From Spirochaetaceae bacterium (GTDB lineage: Bacteria > Spirochaetota > Spirochaetia > Treponematales > Breznakiellaceae), in contig JAITIR010000047.1 of the NCBI GenBank assembly GCA_031279285.1, positions 1 through 49,452 of the forward strand: a stretch of 49,452 nt of DNA, in the 5' to 3' direction. Shown here in pieces: positions 7,333 to 18,170 of the stretch (the first letter of the stretch is position 1; the number at the start of each line of letters is the position of its first letter). The notes under the pieces were generated by a model. The model ran no database searches. It saw only the letters and a list, made by a program, of their open reading frames with translations, and was not told where the DNA came from. The position numbers and the translations under genes were made by a program.

Positions 7333-8595
7333 TTGTATACTGTAGATTCGAAAAAAGCCGTCAATTTGCTAAAAACGGCAAGTCATCCCTGTTTTTCCGG
7401 CTGCGGCGGCGGACATAGCCGCGTACACCTTCCCATAGCTCCTGCCTGCAACATACAGTGCAACTACTGTGTGCGCAAATACGACTGTCCCAATGAAAGC
7501 CGTCCAGGTGTTACTGCAAAGGTTTTATCGCCGCACCAGGCGTTGGAACGTTACCTCCTAGTAAAAGAAAAGATCGGGAAGCCGGATGTTGTGGGTATAG
7601 CGGGGCCTGGTGACGCCCTCGCAAATTTCCAAGCGCTCAAGGAGACTCTCATCCTTGTGCGTCAGATTGAACCGGAAATTACGTTCTGTATTTCAACCAA
7701 CGGGCTGGCGTTGCCTATGTATGCCGGCGAACTTGAAGACCTGGGCGTCTCCCACGTCACGGTAACGGTAAACGCCGTGGCCCCTGTCATAGGAAAGCGT
7801 ATTTACCGCTACGTGCGGTTTAATGACAGAAACTACATGGGCATTGATGCGGCAAAGGCGCTTCAGGAGAATCAGCTTGATGGAATAAGACGCATTGTGG
7901 ATATGGGCATGGTCTGCAAGGTAAATATCGTGATGCTGGCTGGGATAAACGATGCGCACATCCCGGATGTTGTCAAAACCGTTGCCGGGCTGGGGGTGGC
8001 TATGTCAAACATAATGCAGCTTATCCCGGTCAAGGGCAGTATATTTGAACATCTACCGCTTGTAAGCAACACGGACATCACAAGAATGCGGAAACAATGC
8101 GAGGGGATACTTCCACAGATGTACCATTGCAGGCAGTGCCGGGCCGATGCCGCAGGCACGCTGGACAACGATATTTCGCTTTCGTTAAACAGCAGCGCGG
8201 AGCCACCGGCAAAAACAAAGCGCACTTATTCGGATAATCCCCTGCGCTTCGCCGTAGCATCAAAGAACGGCTACCTGGTGGATCAGCATTTCGGCCACAC
8301 CGTCGCATTTTATGTTTATGAATACTCGCGTGGACAGGTAACTTTCTTTGAACGCCGTGAGATTCCACGCTACTGTTCCGGGCCGGAAGGGTGCGGGGAT
8401 CGAGGGGAGATGATGAAGACTATTATATCCGTAATAGAAGACTGTACGGGTGTGATTGCCGTGCGCATAGGGGAAATGCCCAGATCAATTCTGGCCGAAA
8501 AAGGAATACGGTTTTTTATGACCTACGACTATGCTACCACCGCGGTTGGCATTGCGGCGGAACAAGTTACGGAGAGCGTCTGCGGCATCGAATAG
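7333..8595 (+). CDS. nifB: Nitrogenase cofactor biosynthesis radical SAM protein NifB
   Basis: 420 residues. NifB fuses two [4Fe-4S] units and inserts a carbide to make NifB-co, the precursor of FeMo-co. HPCFSGCGGGHSR (18-30) is the NifB-specific N-terminal signature. CNIQCNYC (39-46) is the radical-SAM CxxxCxxC site. GPGDAL (91-96) and HCRQC (265-269) match conserved cluster and substrate elements. Residues from about 305 to the end form the NifX/NafY-like cofactor-binding domain, including DQHFGH. The start is TTG at 7333 with AGGAG at 7322-7326. There is no nearby ATG. No other nif gene is in the window, so nifHDK must be elsewhere. The gene stands alone between divergent and convergent neighbours. 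Confidence 0.96.
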   Translation: MYTVDSKKAVNLLKTASHPCFSGCGGGHSRVHLPIAPACNIQCNYCVRKYDCPNESRPGVTAKVLSPHQALERYLLVKEKIGKPDVVGIAGPGDALANFQALKETLILVRQIEPEITFCISTNGLALPMYAGELEDLGVSHVTVTVNAVAPVIGKRIYRYVRFNDRNYMGIDAAKALQENQLDGIRRIVDMGMVCKVNIVMLAGINDAHIPDVVKTVAGLGVAMSNIMQLIPVKGSIFEHLPLVSNTDITRMRKQCEGILPQMYHCRQCRADAAGTLDNDISLSLNSSAEPPAKTKRTYSDNPLRFAVASKNGYLVDQHFGHTVAFYVYEYSRGQVTFFERREIPRYCSGPEGCGDRGEMMKTIISVIEDCTGVIAVRIGEMPRSILAEKGIRFFMTYDYATTAVGIAAEQVTESVCGIE

Positions 8596-11420: not shown

Positions 11421-11471
11421 TTGACGGTTCGAAAATTCCGATTGTATAATAAATCACTAAAACGTTTTAGT
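11421..11471 (+). promoter_or_regulatory. Promoter and LacI-type operator of the TRAP/URO-D operon
   Basis: TTGACG (11421-11426), 18 bases, TATAAT (11445-11450), followed at once by the perfect 16-bp palindrome ACTAAAACGTTTTAGT (11456-11471) centred on CG. LacI/PurR-family regulators bind just such CG-centred palindromes. The site covers the expected transcription start, and the regulator ATG is 7 bases further. Autorepression of the regulator, and probably of the whole downstream operon, is the natural reading. I found no second copy before dctP (12549-12632). Confidence 0.8.
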
Positions 11472-11477
11472 TAAAAA

Positions 11478-12548
11478 ATGATGGAAAAACGGGTTACCAT
11501 AAAAGATATTGCCGCACAGGCGGGCGTTTCTCTTGGGGCTGTACACTGCGCCTTGCTGGGGAAAAAGGGTGTCGGCGCCGAAACCAGGCAGCGGATCATC
11601 AAGATAGCAAAAGACGTGAATTACCTTCCCAATTCAAGCGCCGCGGCCATCAAACGCAAGCAACTGCGGGTTGCGGCAGCCTTTCCCACCACCACCAACG
11701 ACAACCGCTTTTTCTACACCGCTATTTGGCAGGGAATCCGTGATTTCTTTGCGTCCCAGGCCGATCTGAATATACGCTGTATCGAGGTTCCTTTTAGCGG
11801 AATAATCAACAGTTACTCGGATGAAATCACAGAACTTATGGACCGCACCGAGATTCACGGCCTCATTTCTGTAGGTTTTATGGATAACCGTGGGAAAATT
11901 TCCCTTCAAAGCCTTATCGACAAAGATATCCCCGTGATTCTGGTTACCAACGATATTCCCCTTTCGGGGAGATTGTGCTGTGTGCAGCCCGATTATAGGG
12001 TCACCGGCCGTATGTTGGCGGAATGTATTACCCGTCAAATCCCCAGGGACGCGGGCATTCTGATTTGGGCGGGCGATGTACTTATGCCTTCCCACTACAT
12101 GACTGTGGAAGGCTTTGATTCCTGGCTGTCCGATAAACAACTGGGGAACCCTTTGTACAAAATTCATGTCAGCGGCGCAAAGGATATGGATATAGAAAAC
12201 ATAGCGCGTGCCCTTAAACAAAAAGCTCCGGCCGCCGCTTGCTGCATTAATGCCCGTGGAAGCGTAATCCTGGGTAATGCCATCGTAGAAACCGGGCTGG
12301 CGGGAAAGATCGTTTCGGTAGGTTGTGACATCTTTGAAGAAAACCTGCGCTTCCTCCGTGAGGGTGTATTTACCAATTTGCTCCATAAAAACGCGTACCT
12401 ACAGGCTTATATGGCCTCCAAATATATGGTCGACTACTTGGTAAAAGATATAAGACCCCCTTCGGATCTTATCTACGTAAACAGTGAAATTATTTTTGAG
12501 AGCAATGCTTCATTATGTAATAATGGCTTTACCCAGTTACTGCTCTAG
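11478..12548 (+). CDS. LacI-family transcriptional regulator
   Basis: About 355 residues. The N-terminal LacI helix-turn-helix is clear (VTIKDIAAQAGVSLGAVHCA, with hinge-helix region NYLPNSSAAAIKRKQ), followed by a periplasmic-binding-protein-like sensor domain (FYTAIWQGIRDFF, ILVTNDIPL, GRMLAECITRQIP). In canonical members an alanine of the hinge helix intercalates at the central CG step, matching the CG-centred operator in front of the gene. Two adjacent ATGs (11478, 11481) are possible, and neither has a good Shine-Dalgarno site. The sensor family normally binds a small organic ligand, which here is probably the TRAP substrate or a product. The TRAP operon follows 84 bases later. Confidence 0.9.
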   Translation: MMEKRVTIKDIAAQAGVSLGAVHCALLGKKGVGAETRQRIIKIAKDVNYLPNSSAAAIKRKQLRVAAAFPTTTNDNRFFYTAIWQGIRDFFASQADLNIRCIEVPFSGIINSYSDEITELMDRTEIHGLISVGFMDNRGKISLQSLIDKDIPVILVTNDIPLSGRLCCVQPDYRVTGRMLAECITRQIPRDAGILIWAGDVLMPSHYMTVEGFDSWLSDKQLGNPLYKIHVSGAKDMDIENIARALKQKAPAAACCINARGSVILGNAIVETGLAGKIVSVGCDIFEENLRFLREGVFTNLLHKNAYLQAYMASKYMVDYLVKDIRPPSDLIYVNSEIIFESNASLCNNGFTQLLL

Positions 12549-12632
12549 GAATCTGCGGGTATCGACTCTTTGGACGGCGCGGGTTCCGGAGCATTCTGGA
12601 TAAAAATAATTTATGTTTTCAGGAGGAAAACA

Positions 12633-13643
12633 ATGAAAAAATTACTGTTGGTTTTTTTGGGAATCGCAATAGCGGTTCCGGCTTTTGCGACCGGCGGGCA
12701 GGCGTCTTCCGGAGGGGACGGCTCACAGCAGTCCATTACCCTGAGGTACGCGGAACTTAACCCCGACGGCCACATCATGGATCTCTGCGCGGATCACTTT
12801 GCCGAATTGGTCAAACAAAAATCCGGCGGCCGCATTAACATCCAAGTGTTCCCGGCGAGTCAGCTTGGTGACGAAAAAACCGTCTACCAGGGCCTTCAGA
12901 TCGGCAGCGTGGATATGTGTCGTGGAAACACCAACTCAATGGTTGACTTCGGTGTCAGGAAGATCACCCTCTTCGGCCTGCCCTTTATTTTCCGCGACAG
13001 GGACCACCTGTGGAAGGTACTGAACAGCGAAATCGGTGACGAATTCCTCAAAGAAGTTGAGGACATCAACTCGGGCATGGTTGGGCTTTTCTACCTTGAC
13101 GAGGGAAGCCGTAACTTCTTTACCGCGAGAAGGTACGTCATTAACAGCGTCAACGATTACCGGGGACTCAAGCTACGGGTTCCTACAACGGAACTTATGA
13201 GCGACACCGTCGCGGCGCTGGGCGTTCAGTCGACGCCGATCAGCTTCTCGGAACTCTATTCCGCGCTTCAAACCGGCGTTGTCGACGGCGCCGAGCAGCC
13301 TCACTCCGGCTACTTCTCCAACAAATTCTATGAGGTTGCGCCTAACTACATACTTTCGGGCCACACTTACAGCCCCGGTATCGTACTGATGAGCGAGCTT
13401 AGCTGGAAAAAACTGAGCTCCGCGGATCAGGCCATCATCCGGGAAGCGGCCAAGGAAACCGAAGCGTGGAACAAATCAAACATCGAAAAGCTTGACAACG
13501 ATCTTCTTGAGCAGATCAAAGCCGCCGGCGCGAACGTGATTCCCGTTCCGGACAAGACTCCCTATATCGAACGGACAAGGGATGTTTCCGCCAAATACGC
13601 GAAGGGCCTTGAAAATTATTACCAGGCTATTCTGGCAAAATGA
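12633..13643 (+). CDS. dctP: TRAP transporter solute-binding protein (DctP family)
   Basis: 336 residues. ATG at 12633 follows an ideal AGGAGG (12621-12626). An upstream in-frame ATG exists but would misplace the signal peptide, which is MKKLLLVFLGIAIAVPAFA. The DctP fold is evident: LRYAELNPDGHIMDLCADHF at the start, SQLGDEKTVYQGLQIGSVDM, then the FRDRDHLW segment. The conserved YRGLKLRVP carries the arginine that in characterised family members binds a substrate carboxylate. GVVDGAEQP and WNK follow. It therefore probably captures an organic acid in the periplasm for DctQM. The ligand cannot be named from sequence. It is the first structural gene after the LacI regulator. Confidence 0.92.
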   Translation: MKKLLLVFLGIAIAVPAFATGGQASSGGDGSQQSITLRYAELNPDGHIMDLCADHFAELVKQKSGGRINIQVFPASQLGDEKTVYQGLQIGSVDMCRGNTNSMVDFGVRKITLFGLPFIFRDRDHLWKVLNSEIGDEFLKEVEDINSGMVGLFYLDEGSRNFFTARRYVINSVNDYRGLKLRVPTTELMSDTVAALGVQSTPISFSELYSALQTGVVDGAEQPHSGYFSNKFYEVAPNYILSGHTYSPGIVLMSELSWKKLSSADQAIIREAAKETEAWNKSNIEKLDNDLLEQIKAAGANVIPVPDKTPYIERTRDVSAKYAKGLENYYQAILAK

Positions 13644-13653
13644 ACCAATGAGC

Positions 13654-13684
13654 GTAAAACCCGGCAACCACGGCCGGGTTTTAC
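13654..13684 (+). terminator. Intercistronic hairpin between dctP and dctQ, probable attenuator
   Basis: A perfect 12-bp stem (13654-13665/13673-13684) with a 7-nt loop starts 10 bases after the dctP stop. Its core CCCGGC/GCCGGG is followed by TTTT, which is itself part of the stem, so it could act as a leaky terminator or as a 3' block to RNA decay. Either would raise dctP mRNA relative to dctQM. A new GTG start with AAGGGGG follows directly. Confidence 0.65.
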
Positions 13685-13698
13685 CCAAAGGGGGAAAA

Positions 13699-14253
13699 GT
13701 GAAACGGATAACCCAATTTTTTGACGTAGTGTATTGGATTTTTATGACTACCTGCAAGATCTGTTTTATTGCCATGGTAGCCCTTACCGCATACGTTGTG
13801 TTTAACCGCTATATCGTAAAATCGCCACTAAGCTGGGGTGAACCGGTCGTACTGATGTTCATGGTTTATATGGCACTGGTAAGCGCCGCCCTGGCAATAA
13901 GGAAAGACCGTCATATCAGAATGCAGATAATAGATTTTTTTATGCCCAGAAAGGTCGTGGCTTTTTTCCGGGGCGTAGCTCAGGTCTGCATATTTTTCTT
14001 CGGCATTTTCATGATCTGGAACGGCTGTAAATTTGCAGTCCAGGCCGGACGAAATCTGATGACTGGCGTCGGCATTAAATCCCTGTGGTTGTATGTAGCT
14101 GTCCCCATATCGGGCGTCGCTATCTGCCTTATGGAAATTGAGCGTTTCATCAATTGCATCGACCGCATAAAGCGGGGCGTCATGCTTGAGGGCGGAAGCA
14201 TAGTCGAGGACGCGCAAAAACTGGTAGAAGAAGAAGCCGGGGAGGTGGAATAA
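13699..14253 (+). CDS. dctQ: TRAP transporter small permease (DctQ family)
   Basis: About 184 residues with four hydrophobic segments, as expected for DctQ: FMTTCKICFIAMVALTAYVV, LMFMVYMALVSAALAI, VAQVCIFFFGIFMIW, and LWLYVAVPISGVAICLM. The family mark of a polar RKDRHIRM after helix 2 is present. I prefer GTG at 13699 because AAGGGGG sits 5 bases upstream. In-frame ATGs at 13582 (inside dctP) and 13648 (before the hairpin) are poorer. Its TAA shares one base with the dctM ATG. It forms the membrane unit with DctM. Confidence 0.88.
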   Translation: MKRITQFFDVVYWIFMTTCKICFIAMVALTAYVVFNRYIVKSPLSWGEPVVLMFMVYMALVSAALAIRKDRHIRMQIIDFFMPRKVVAFFRGVAQVCIFFFGIFMIWNGCKFAVQAGRNLMTGVGIKSLWLYVAVPISGVAICLMEIERFINCIDRIKRGVMLEGGSIVEDAQKLVEEEAGEVE

Positions 14254-15563
14254 TGGATATTACTACCTCTGCCAGTCTGTTATTAATCTGTTCTTTCTTT
14301 TTGATGCTGATTGCGCGTTTTCCTATAGCCTTTGCCATCGGCATTTCCAGCATCATTACCACCATTTACCTCAAGATTCCACTGATGCAGATTGCCCAGC
14401 TTATGGTAAAAGGGGTCAACGTATTTACCCTTATGGCTGTTCCCTTCTTCGTCATCGCCGGTGAAATCATGGGCGCCGGAGGTATAGCCAGACGCCTGGT
14501 AAATTTGGCGAACGCCTGCGTGGGCTGGATGCGAGGCGGGCTGGCGATGGTAAACGTGGTGGACTCCATGTTTTTCGGCGGAATTTCCGGCTCCTCAACC
14601 GCGGACACCGCGGCCCTGGGGTCCGTCCTTATTCCGATGATGGTGGAACAGGGCTACGATGAAGAATTCTCCACCAACATTACCATGACCAGTTCGGTTC
14701 AGGGGCTGCTTATTCCCCCCAGCCATAACATGGTTATGTACGCCATGGTAGCGGGCAGCGTTTCGGTAGGGCGGCTCTTTCTGGGTGGCATTGTTCCGGG
14801 GATATTTCTTGGTATAGCCTTGGGAGTTTACTGTTTTTATCTTTCGATAAAACGCAAGTATCCCAAGGGCGATCCTTTCAGATTCAGGATTCTTGTTAAA
14901 GCCCTGGCAGATTCGATCTGGGGCCTTGCGACAATTCTTATCGTTATGGTCGGCGTAATAACCGGTATCATAACAGCCACCGAATCCGCGGCCATTGCCG
15001 TGGTTTGGGCGCTCTTTGTCAGCGCCTTTATTTACAAGGAACTGACCTGGAAAAAATTCTGGAAAGTCCTTGAAAAATCGCTGGGAACCCTGGCTATTGT
15101 CATGATCCTGATTTCGACTTCCCAGGTTTTCGGATGGCTGCTCACATACCTCCGTATGCCCCAGATGGCCGCCGAAGCTGTATTCAAACTTACCAGCAAC
15201 CGTTATGTAATAATGCTGCTCCTAAATATCTTCATGCTCTTTCTGGGAACAATCATGGATATGTCGGCCATCATCATTGTTGCAACGCCCATCCTGCTCC
15301 CGATTGCGATACGGGCGGGAATGGATCCGGTCCACTTTGGCGTGGTGGTGATTTTGAACCTCGGAATCGGCCTTATCACCCCGCCTGTTGGCGGCACACT
15401 CTTTGTCGGTTCCGCGGTTTCAGGCGTGCCTATAGAACGGCTGATAAAACCACTCATGCCCTTCTTTTGCGTGATGGTCATCGTACTTATCATTATCACC
15501 TATGTGCCGGAAATCGTTATGTTCGTGCCGGATCTCATCATGCCGGTAAAAACGGGAGGCTGA
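14253..15563 (+). CDS. dctM: TRAP transporter large permease (DctM family)
   Basis: 436 residues, the usual DctM length, with about 12 hydrophobic segments. Family features include AVPFFVIAGEIMGAGGIARR, FFGGISGSSTADTAALGSVL, MTSSVQGLLIPPSHNM and LGIGLITPPVGGTLFVG. DctM carries the solute across the inner membrane using an ion gradient. The start overlaps the dctQ stop by one base (TAATG), with GGAGGTGG upstream. The next reading frame begins only 3 bases after its stop. Confidence 0.95.
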   Translation: MDITTSASLLLICSFFLMLIARFPIAFAIGISSIITTIYLKIPLMQIAQLMVKGVNVFTLMAVPFFVIAGEIMGAGGIARRLVNLANACVGWMRGGLAMVNVVDSMFFGGISGSSTADTAALGSVLIPMMVEQGYDEEFSTNITMTSSVQGLLIPPSHNMVMYAMVAGSVSVGRLFLGGIVPGIFLGIALGVYCFYLSIKRKYPKGDPFRFRILVKALADSIWGLATILIVMVGVITGIITATESAAIAVVWALFVSAFIYKELTWKKFWKVLEKSLGTLAIVMILISTSQVFGWLLTYLRMPQMAAEAVFKLTSNRYVIMLLLNIFMLFLGTIMDMSAIIIVATPILLPIAIRAGMDPVHFGVVVILNLGIGLITPPVGGTLFVGSAVSGVPIERLIKPLMPFFCVMVIVLIIITYVPEIVMFVPDLIMPVKTGG

Positions 15564-15566
15564 AAA

Positions 15567-15770
15567 ATGTGGGACTTGCCCGACGAAAGCGGTCGGCTTG
15601 GGCCGGGTTTTGAAAGGGATTTTAAAGCTGCCGGATCGGTCATCACCTACCCCGGCGGCGCCTGTCGTTTTCTTTCTCCGCGGGAAGCGGGACGCCTGAA
15701 TGATGTTCACGTTGCCCGCCGGTTTGATCTATGCGTTGAATGGCTAAGCGGCCTTACGGGGCGGCAATGA
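15567..15770 (+). CDS. Small hypothetical protein in the TRAP/URO-D operon
   Basis: 67 residues, starting at ATG 15567 three bases after the dctM stop, with GGGAGG 8 bases upstream, and ending 21 bases before the next gene. Position, Shine-Dalgarno and lack of overlap support a real gene. The sequence (MWDLPDESGRLGPGF..., CVEWLSGLTGRQ) has no transmembrane segment and only two cysteines, and I do not recognise it. It could be a small subunit or chaperone for one of the URO-D-fold proteins. That is inference from position only. Confidence 0.55.
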   Translation: MWDLPDESGRLGPGFERDFKAAGSVITYPGGACRFLSPREAGRLNDVHVARRFDLCVEWLSGLTGRQ

Positions 15771-15791
15771 TTTACAGGAAAGTAAGCGTAC

Positions 15792-16922
15792 ATGGATACG
15801 ATCAAGTTTGATACAAGCAACGCGGATTCCCAGGGGACAAGGGTCGAGCCCCTCTCTCCCGCCGCCTTTGACGCCGAAAAATACGCCGGCTATGCCGCGG
15901 CGCTTGATGAAAAATGCGCCCGTTTTAGGGATTCGAGTGAAGGAATTCTGGTACACCGGCGTTTCCGGGTTCCCGAAGTTTTCGCGGGGAAATGCGGGGA
16001 CATGGAGCTTTCCCTCAGCCTCCAGCTTTCCGCCCTGCAAAGCAGCGTGGACTACGCTATGGACGTTCCCAATTTCCTTGAACCCTGGTACGGTATAGGC
16101 GCTGTTCCCGCCGCCTACGGCGCGGATTACGTGTGGAACGGCGATCTGGCGCCCGCAACCATGCCGCTTTTTAAAACTGTTGACGAAGCTCTTGCCGCCG
16201 AACCTAAGGAAATAGAAGAAACTCCCGTGGGACGGCACATTCTTGAAATGATAGAATATTTTATGGAAAGTACAGGCGGCAAAATTCCCATTTCCCTTTC
16301 CGATGTCCAATCACCCCTTGATTCGACGGCCGCCCTGATCGAGACCTCCGAGTTTTATATGGCCTGCCTGGAGGACCCCGATTCCGTAAAAAAACTTCTT
16401 GAACGCATAACGAATCTTACAGTCAGATTCTGCAAAAAGCAGGCCGCTATGATCGGGGAGCAGCTTGTGTTTCCCGGACATGGCTTTTCATCTTCAAGGA
16501 ATTTTTCCGGAATGGGATTCAGCGATGACAACTCCATCATGCTTTCGCCCAAAACCCATGAGGAAATATGCGGCGATTCGATGGTTCGTTTTGGCCAGGC
16601 TTTCGGCGGTTTCGCCTTTCACTGCTGCGGAAACTGGTCGAAAAAAACCGAAACTGTCAAAGCCCTGAGCGGCGTCAAAACCGTCGACGGGGCGTTTACC
16701 ATCAGAACCGATCCTTCACCTAACCCGGTTGCGCCCTTTCGGGATTCCTTTGCCGGTTCGGGCATCTGCGTCAATGCCCGTATGGTGGGAAGCCGCGAAG
16801 AGGTTATCGAAAAGGTTAGGGAACTTCAAAAGCCGGGAATGAAACTGATCATTGTTACCTATTGCGAAAGCAGTGAAGAACAGAAAAAAATCCATGAGGC
16901 CATACATGAGAGTATATGCTGA
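15792..16922 (+). CDS. URO-D/MtaA-fold protein, first of two
   Basis: 376 residues of the uroporphyrinogen-decarboxylase superfamily, which includes the corrinoid:CoM methyltransferases MtaA/MtbA/CmuA-C as well as true HemE. The segment FHCCGNW resembles the HxCGN zinc motif of the methyltransferase branch. HemE's N-terminal arginine signature is not seen, so heme synthesis is unlikely. Residues 1-60 form an unusual N-terminal extension. It lies behind a TRAP transporter for a probable organic acid and is followed, with a 17-base overlap, by a second member. A role in methyl or carboxyl transfer on the imported compound is a reasonable guess. No corrinoid-binding or MttB-like partner is nearby. 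Confidence 0.8.
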   Translation: MDTIKFDTSNADSQGTRVEPLSPAAFDAEKYAGYAAALDEKCARFRDSSEGILVHRRFRVPEVFAGKCGDMELSLSLQLSALQSSVDYAMDVPNFLEPWYGIGAVPAAYGADYVWNGDLAPATMPLFKTVDEALAAEPKEIEETPVGRHILEMIEYFMESTGGKIPISLSDVQSPLDSTAALIETSEFYMACLEDPDSVKKLLERITNLTVRFCKKQAAMIGEQLVFPGHGFSSSRNFSGMGFSDDNSIMLSPKTHEEICGDSMVRFGQAFGGFAFHCCGNWSKKTETVKALSGVKTVDGAFTIRTDPSPNPVAPFRDSFAGSGICVNARMVGSREEVIEKVRELQKPGMKLIIVTYCESSEEQKKIHEAIHESIC

Positions 16923-17976
16923 CAAACTCCTTCCTGTGGAACTTGTATTCTCGCCCCAGTGGTGGTACAGGCAGGCAGGCATCACCTTTGATCGGGACTT
17001 TTTCTTCCACCCCGCGCGTAGGGTGGAGGACGAGCGTAAAATGGAAAAGCTGCTTTACGAAAAGTGGGGCGGATACGGACTCGGTAATGACCGCGACAAG
17101 AACCGGCCGGAGCAGGGAGCGGTGCATCTGGCATCGGGCTACCTGCTTTCCGAAATGATGGGCTGTAAAGTTGAATACCGCGAGGCGGCGCCGCCCCAGG
17201 TAATCTGCCGCTACATGAAAGAAATGGACTGTCGTCCGGCGGAGGGCGCCTTTGAAAGCGATACTTTCAAAGCCTTCAGCGGTATGCGGGAAAAGCTTAA
17301 AACAAAATACGGCCATGTCACGGGTGACGTAAACTGGAGCGGCATCCTTAACCTGGCCATCGACCTGAGAGGTCCTGAAGTTTTTGAGGACATGGCCGAA
17401 GAACACGAAAAGAGCAAAGCCTTCTTTAATTCCATCGCCGCCATGATAGAGAAATTTACCGACGGCCTTCAGGAGAACGCGAACTCAACATCGGTTTCGG
17501 TGAACCGGAACGTAGCCCATCTTGATATGCCTGTTCTGCTACATTCCGAATGTTCCCTCACAATGATCTCTGAAAGTATGTACCGGGAGTATATTCTGCC
17601 GCATGATCTCAGGTGGAGCCGAAAGAAGGTTCCTTTCGGCATTCATTACTGCGGCCCCGATCCTCAACGTTTCGCGGCAGTCTTCGCGGAGATACCTGAT
17701 CTCGCTTTCCTTGACCTTGGCTACGGCGGAGACGTTGCAGTGATCCGCAAATATCTTCCGAATACCTTTCTCAACATCAGGCTCAGCCCCGTAGAGATCG
17801 CCCGCAACGGTCCTGTAGAGGTGAGGGAAACAGTGATCCGGCTGGTCAGGCAGTCTGCCGACTACAGGCTTACCGGTATCTGCTGCATCAATATGGACGA
17901 TACTGTTAAAGACGAAAACGTGGACGCGATTTTCGAGGCACGGAAGGAACTGCTGGAAGAAATCGGCGCTTTATAG
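16906..17976 (+). CDS. URO-D/MtaA-fold protein, second of two
   Basis: 356 residues from ATG 16906, with GAGG six bases upstream. The start lies 17 bases inside the previous gene, so the two are probably translationally coupled. A longer in-frame version starting at 16852 overlaps more and has no Shine-Dalgarno. The superfamily segment IHYCGPDP (zinc-type His and Cys) and the C-terminal NIRLSPVEIARNGPVEV are visible. The protein is divergent from the first copy: one ends its zinc motif in CGNW and the other in CGPD, so they are paralogues of old standing, not a recent duplication. They may form a hetero-complex or catalyse successive steps. The substrate is unknown. Confidence 0.78.
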   Translation: MRVYADKLLPVELVFSPQWWYRQAGITFDRDFFFHPARRVEDERKMEKLLYEKWGGYGLGNDRDKNRPEQGAVHLASGYLLSEMMGCKVEYREAAPPQVICRYMKEMDCRPAEGAFESDTFKAFSGMREKLKTKYGHVTGDVNWSGILNLAIDLRGPEVFEDMAEEHEKSKAFFNSIAAMIEKFTDGLQENANSTSVSVNRNVAHLDMPVLLHSECSLTMISESMYREYILPHDLRWSRKKVPFGIHYCGPDPQRFAAVFAEIPDLAFLDLGYGGDVAVIRKYLPNTFLNIRLSPVEIARNGPVEVRETVIRLVRQSADYRLTGICCINMDDTVKDENVDAIFEARKELLEEIGAL

Positions 17977-18135: not shown

Positions 18136-18170
18136 AAGAAAGCCCCGCGCTTTTCACGTGGGGCTTTCTT
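18136..18170. terminator. Bidirectional terminator between the URO-D operon and gapA
   Basis: An 11-bp perfect stem (AAGAAAGCCCC at 18136-18146, GGGGCTTTCTT at 18160-18170) with further pairing inside the loop. A/T-rich tracts on both flanks let it serve the plus-strand operon and the minus-strand gapA. It lies 34 bases from the gapA stop. Confidence 0.75.

Follow-up and report, generated by a model that had tools for sequence, protein, structure and literature searches.

The closest described relatives of the system considered here belong to the uroporphyrinogen decarboxylase (URO-D) superfamily. They include MtaA and other soluble coenzyme M (CoM) methyltransferases (PDB entries 4AY7 and 4AY8), the MtvB, OdmB, VdmB and CdmB systems, in which a URO-D-type first methyltransferase acts with a corrinoid protein, a tetrahydrofolate methyltransferase and an activase on methoxyaromatics or chloromethane, and the Type 1 mlp gene clusters of sulfur and selenium metabolism (Kountz & Balskus, PMC10418091). 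Methyl ethers are likewise removed during polysaccharide catabolism by an aerobic P450 acting on 6-O-methyl-galactose (PMC10033563, PMC12316285), and how gut bacteria demethylate methyl-galactose without oxygen is described as not yet worked out (PMC12316285). A search of the literature found no anaerobic sugar O-demethylation by corrinoid enzymes. Methyl ethers are common in plant cell walls, with 4-O-methyl-glucuronate occurring in xylan, and 2-O-methyl-fucose and 2-O-methyl-xylose in rhamnogalacturonan II (RG-II). In this study, we describe an operon of a Spirochaetaceae bacterium that places two URO-D-fold proteins, U1 and U2, behind a predicted sugar-acid importer. The window analysed is the whole 49,452-nucleotide contig JAITIR010000047.1, one of the contigs of a genome bin that is 72% complete.

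We give about an even chance to the reading that this operon provides inducible uptake, and anaerobic corrinoid-dependent demethylation by U1 and U2, of an O-methylated acidic sugar. The genes and their orthology, the fold and motifs of both proteins, their neighbourhoods in relatives and their genome-level co-occurrence with corrinoid proteins are established here. Loci are labeled L, genomes G (G000 being the host genome) and contigs of the host genome C. The features of the operon are as follows.

11421..11450, + strand: sigma-70-like promoter TTGACG-18-TATAAT, proposed by consensus match only (consensus scan, 11 of 12 positions)
11456..11471, unstranded: perfect 16-bp palindromic putative operator ACTAAAACGTTTTAGT, in an autoregulatory position ahead of lacI
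11478..12548, + strand: LacI-family regulator with helix-turn-helix and sugar-binding effector domains (PF00356, 2.8e-10; PF13407, 2.4e-19)
12633..13643, + strand: DctP, solute-binding protein of a tripartite ATP-independent periplasmic (TRAP) transporter (PF03480, 2.4e-74)
13699..14253, + strand: DctQ, small TRAP membrane subunit (PF04290, 7.5e-26)
14253..15563, + strand: DctM, large TRAP permease (PF06808, 1.3e-115)
15567..15770, + strand: 67-residue reading frame, apparently an internally deleted esterase remnant (match to both ends of a hydrolase of about 254 residues)
15792..16922, + strand: U1, URO-D superfamily, HCCG...C (PF01208, 1.8e-8)
16906..17976, + strand: U2, URO-D superfamily, HYCG...GICCINMDD (fold and invariant residues)
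About 18136..18170, + strand: predicted intrinsic terminator hairpin with a 14-bp stem and T-rich tail (-25.5 kcal/mol, z -4.76)

U1 belongs to the URO-D superfamily by a weak match to PF01208 (1.8e-8); U2 matched no Pfam family, PF01208 included, and its membership is by fold only. Neither protein matched the HemE equivalog TIGR01464 at E ≤ 0.01, and their scores against the MtaA/CmuA model TIGR01463, 22.2 and 16.8 bits, lie far below its cut-off of 235.4. Profile searches against PDB sequences returned nothing significant, and only fold comparison was informative. The AlphaFold models of U1 and U2 (predicted local distance difference test scores of 84.7 and 87) have as best PDB matches the MtaA entries 4ay8 and 4ay7, with a Foldseek value of 6e-11 for U2 to MtaA. 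In both cases Methanosarcina mazei MtaA (methylcobalamin:CoM methyltransferase) ranks first and HemE next. MtaA also shares the His-Cys-Cys residues, and differs in that U1 and U2 are two distinct, paired proteins behind a sugar-acid importer in a host that is not a methanogen.

The CGNW and CGPD segments noted in the preliminary description are present as HCCGNW in U1 and HYCGPD in U2. In alignments, U1 His277, Cys279 and Cys358 are invariant in eight orthologues, and U2 His247, Cys249, Cys326 and Cys327 in 17; the His-Cys-Cys set, formed by HxCG and a C-terminal Cys, is the predicted zinc site of both families. When placed in a tree together with further URO-D proteins of the same neighbourhoods, U1 and U2 each form one clade (100/100), with long-branch warnings on how the clades join. 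Comparison with the related locus L008 indicates purifying selection on both genes (ratio of nonsynonymous to synonymous rates, dN/dS, approximately 0.17 for U1 and 0.11 for U2).

These comparisons dispose of ordinary heme biosynthesis by HemE duplicates, to which we assign a negligible probability. U1 does have a URO-D Pfam match, as that explanation would predict, but neither protein matches the HemE equivalog, U2 lacks PF01208, both carry the His-Cys-Cys residues, and no heme gene is adjacent. The locus had from the outset been set apart from heme biosynthesis, and with scores that are absent or far below those of the HemE and MtaA models this distinction stands.

Close relatives are metagenome-assembled genomes labeled Treponema sp. 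Orthologues of U2 were found in Treponema, Bacteroidota and Planctomycetota, and a distant one in Chloroflexota. U1 and U2 go together in three phyla (Spirochaetota, Bacteroidota and Planctomycetota), including genomes where the two genes are unlinked. U1 adjoins U2 in L008, L024, L010, L018, L021 and L022, and one gene separates them in L012. A U1 orthologue was found in 13 of the 23 U2 genomes, in five of them on a separate contig. The association of TRAP transporter, esterase, U1 and U2 is found in a second Treponema lineage in another gene arrangement, with 69% identity for both U1 and U2. Locus L024 combines TRAP genes, LacI, U1, U2 and an intact esterase in a divergent arrangement, indicating that the association outlasts rearrangement. 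The core of the original proposal, a catabolic pathway in which a conserved pair of URO-D proteins follows an organic-acid importer, is supported.

The same proposal held that there is no corrinoid partner. This is correct for the neighbourhood, as no corrinoid protein is encoded near the operon or elsewhere in the window, but not for the genome. Contig C29 encodes a 214-residue stand-alone corrinoid protein (PF02310 and PF02607) beside a pterin-binding methyltransferase, and contig C74 (L099:3091-5025) encodes a RACo protein (PF14574) that passes the AcsV cut-off and classifies as a reductive activase. This AcsV-type protein is the only RACo found in the host genome; relatives hold RACo together with acetyl-CoA synthase. 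At the genome level this is the likely parts list of the MtvB, OdmB, VdmB and CdmB systems, from which the present case differs in having its parts spread over contigs, a His-Cys-Cys site, and a plant-polysaccharide sugar context rather than methoxyaromatics or chloromethane.

A corrinoid query matched 22 of the 23 U2 genomes. In 17–18 of these genomes a stand-alone protein of approximately 210–290 residues matches best, in three a URO-D-corrinoid fusion, in one a MetH-sized protein and in one (G002) a frame with three stops. Among 393 evenly sampled genomes from the order of G073 (Bacteroidales), a corrinoid protein is present in 10 of 11 genomes with U2 and 54 of 382 without (Fisher p = 6.7e-8, an optimistic value because the sampled genomes are related). 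The spirochaete sample is uninformative: two genomes with full-length U2 and one with a contig-edge fragment have a corrinoid protein, and so do approximately 24 of 57 others. RACo was found in 11 of 15 U2 genomes and one of 14 controls. In L023/L103 the gene order is GH138-like (GH, glycoside hydrolase), GH2, U2 and corrinoid protein, the last two being adjacent. Acetyl-CoA synthase (acsB) is present in the relatives G060, G076 and G002, and methyl-tetrahydrofolate can therefore go to acetate in these genomes.

Co-occurrence of this kind might reflect nothing beyond a shared anaerobic lifestyle, with U1 and U2 acting on an unmethylated uronate without a corrinoid, for instance by decarboxylation or rearrangement. 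The operon contains no corrinoid gene, corrinoid proteins are widespread in treponemes, the AcsV-type RACo of the host could be accounted for by acetogenesis alone, and the uronate context described below is strong. Nevertheless, we consider this explanation improbable given the ratio of 10/11 to 54/382 within one order, the adjacency of U2 and corrinoid protein in L023, a fold nearer to MtaA than to HemE, and intact zinc-site residues. HemE is not known to have a zinc site.

The transporter and the neighbours of U1 and U2 in relatives point to the substrate. The best solved relatives of DctP are TRAP binding proteins that include 4MHF and 4N91, which bind glucuronate through two Arg and one Asn (PMC7660916). 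DctP Arg160 and Arg182 occupy the positions of both Arg. In family and in both ligand Arg it resembles the hexuronate transporters STM3169, Bpro_3107 and Apre_1383 (PMC7660916), from which it differs in having Gln222 for the Asn; its ligand is a prediction. The DctP of L024 keeps the Asn.

In six loci (L009, L010, L012, L023, L106 and L109) the neighbour of U2 is homologous to BPa0997 (6hze/6hzf) over its full length, with one GH2 gene between them in L023; BPa0997 is a GH138 alpha-galacturonidase of RG-II chain A. U1 lies beside sugar-acid transporters of the major facilitator superfamily in L010, L012 and L090, and beside UxuA (mannonate dehydratase) in L018. Other neighbours in relatives are GH95, GH2, pectinesterase, GH28, GH106 and SusCD. 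Judged by transporter and neighbours, the foremost substrate candidates are 4-O-methyl-glucuronate and methylated galacturonate.

Methoxylated aromatics and betaines, the ligands first suggested for DctP, are less convincing candidates than uronic and other cell-wall sugars of plants in O-methylated form, since the neighbours in relatives are pectin- and RG-II-type glycoside hydrolases, sugar-acid transporters and a mannonate dehydratase. While the URO-D-superfamily proteins MtvB, OdmB and VdmB do demethylate methoxyaromatics (PMC13222342), the glycoside hydrolases, SusCD, sugar-acid transporters and UxuA around U1 and U2 are not aromatic genes, and DctP resembles hexuronate binders. A role in O-demethylating methoxylated aromatics, or methyl donors of the betaine type, is therefore very unlikely.

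In L109 (6965-13231), U2 lies between a GH138-like gene and a homologue of 9hyq (E 1.7e-204). Entry 9hyq is one of the two GH139 structures of PMC12282258, which describes GH139 as the only family known to release 2-O-methyl-fucose. Approximately 8 kb away on the same Bacteroidales contig (L114:280-4534), a further GH139 copy is grouped in one run with genes for a corrinoid protein and an MtaA-like methyltransferase. The contig strongly suggests itself as a lead to corrinoid-dependent removal of the methyl group from 2-O-methyl-fucose. U3, a third family of URO-D-like proteins, has HLDG in place of HxCG and was found at L062:7126-8931, L063:7728-9533, L116:3749-8096, L106:19-1086 and L090:3774-4946. 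In Phocaeicola and Bacteroides (L062 and L063), U3 and a corrinoid domain make up one fusion protein next to GH31, and in L116 the genes for U3, GH31 and a corrinoid protein are separate neighbours; U3 also lies next to U1 in L090 and next to GH138-U2 in L106. It may act as an O-type demethylase on a methylated sugar. The L109/L114 contig, L116 and the fused U3 loci show that corrinoid proteins and URO-D enzymes recur beside enzymes releasing methylated or acidic cell-wall sugars.

In the proposed mechanism, LacI would leave its operator on binding the sugar or a derivative, and DctPQM would take up the acidic sugar, which the esterase, apparently truncated here, may formerly have deacylated. 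U1 and U2 would be the zinc-dependent methyltransferases that give an anaerobic corrinoid system its substrate specificity, jointly moving the methyl group of an O-methylated acidic plant sugar, such as 4-O-methyl-glucuronate or methylated galacturonate, to Co(I) of the stand-alone corrinoid protein encoded on the other contig. The pterin-binding methyltransferase beside that protein would hand the methyl group to tetrahydrofolate, and the RACo-type ATPase would reactivate the cobalt. In treponemes, the resulting methyl-tetrahydrofolate could feed acetogenesis, and the released uronate would enter ordinary uronate catabolism. Enzyme activity, substrate, direction of methyl transfer and choice of corrinoid protein are all inferred in this scheme.

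Several observations weigh against it, the zinc-site residues most of all. The His-Cys-Cys set is that of the UroD-superfamily zinc S-methyltransferases, to which it has been assigned, O-acting relatives having carboxylates or a lost Cys instead (PMC10418091). U1 and U2 keep both Cys and do not have the O-demethylase pattern, which the separate HLDG family U3 fits better. No Treponema locus has an adjacent corrinoid gene, and the pair of corrinoid protein and second methyltransferase is also present in treponemes without U2, so the corrinoid partnership is not exclusive. Neither UxuA nor acsB turned up in the host bin, which is 72% complete. DctP Gln222 replaces the Asn of the known glucuronate binders. 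Nine of the 23 U2 genomes yielded no U1 in the search, and G002 adds only a 28% match. In L014, L015, L017, L019, L027, L108, L110 and L113, U2 occurs with, or on contigs carrying, a Gfo/Idh/MocA oxidoreductase of the twin-arginine translocation type. U2 of this branch has no adjacent U1 and follows the oxidoreductase (preceding it in L017), and probably has a different substrate. These loci and the nine genomes without U1 show that U2 has more than one context.

The zinc-site residues give most substance to a different role, in which U1 and U2 are S-methyltransferases, either methylating a thiol (for example homocysteine) with a methyl group drawn from a corrinoid protein or taking the methyl group off a thioether, and a U3-like or other enzyme carries out the sugar step. 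These residues are invariant in both families and tied to S-chemistry (PMC10418091). O-type HLDG proteins are found beside U1 in L090, at GH138-U2 in L106, and adjacent to corrinoid proteins or fused with them in L116, L062 and L063. Homocysteine methyltransferases adjoin corrinoid proteins in L069, L070, L120 and L121. However, the Treponema pair stands behind a dedicated acidic-sugar importer, the position expected of a substrate-specific enzyme, the corrinoid protein already has an acceptor methyltransferase of the pterin type next to it, and the operon has no sulfur-metabolism gene; we regard this role as unlikely. The Type 1 mlp clusters offer a parallel, with several His-Cys-Cys URO-D proteins, but there Mlp2, Mlp3, a corrinoid protein and Ram/RACE occur together. 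The cluster in the window has neither corrinoid protein nor Ram/RACE, and its context is sugar-acid import and glycoside hydrolases, not sulfur or selenium metabolism. The His-Cys-Cys residues could mean that U1 and U2 form the acceptor side, or that they bind the leaving hydroxyl differently.

The remaining features of the operon agree largely with the preliminary description. Coordinates and Pfam matches bear out the regulator, the perfect 16-bp operator and the dctP-dctQ-dctM order, and the reading frames of U1 and U2 overlap by exactly 17 bases, as stated. All genes from lacI through U2 form one run on the + strand (11478-17976), which the predicted terminator after U2 closes. DctP, DctQ and DctM make up a complete set of TRAP subunits by Pfam. 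Judged from the sequence, DctQ starts at the GTG at 13699 in preference to an in-frame ATG at 13648. A GC-rich hairpin (13655-13685) lies between dctP and dctQ, just 5' of this likely start, and may set the level of DctP above that of the permease.

LacI has the DNA-binding and effector domains and the nearby palindrome of its family. The operator ACTAAAACGTTTTAGT sits directly behind the promoter-like site and is the sole site with zero or one mismatch in the host genome; in the shuffled window, 0.26 sites are expected even at three mismatches. No copy was found on the contig of the corrinoid protein. With the palindrome unique in the genome and missing from that contig, a shared operator was rejected as evidence for a regulon, and no regulatory tie between operator and corrinoid genes was found.

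The 67-residue reading frame had been put forward as a component of the system and a partner in a complex. It consists instead of approximately 40 residues from the N-terminus and approximately 28 from the C-terminus of an alpha/beta hydrolase of ~254 residues (BD-FAE/acetyl-esterase-like). The full-length hydrolase lies directly upstream of U1 in the related Treponema locus L024, and in L008, whose contig begins inside the gene, it is present from about residue 48 onward. The intact protein matches BD-FAE, and its nearest solved relative, 6a6o, is an esterase. The catalytic middle with the GFSAGG nucleophile region is gone from the 67-residue frame, which is therefore not a third component. 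As it matches only the two ends of an esterase, it was rejected as a functional partner; it may be the relic of a true deletion or an assembly collapse.

Corrin-synthesis genes had been reported 8 kb from the operon, and CbiET and CobB were indeed found 6.5–9 kb upstream. Near them, at 7333-8595 of the window, is nifB (nitrogenase cofactor), which scores above its equivalog cut-off.

The individual parts come from known families; the literature searched describes neither their combination nor the probable carbohydrate substrate. It is somewhat short of an even chance that U1 and U2 represent the first two-protein corrinoid system to remove carbohydrate methyl ethers (O-methylated uronates, RG-II and xylan sugars) without oxygen, common to Treponema, Bacteroidota and Planctomycetota and delivering the methyl group to acetogenesis in treponemes. 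Unlike the P450 route, which needs O2, such a route would be anaerobic. The ties of the pair to corrinoid proteins and methyl-sugar glycosidases make the question of anaerobic demethylation directly testable, also in cultured Phocaeicola coprophilus and Bacteroides sp. Marseille-P3684, and suggest that the methyl groups of hemicellulose and pectin may be linked to acetogenesis in treponemes of the insect-gut type.

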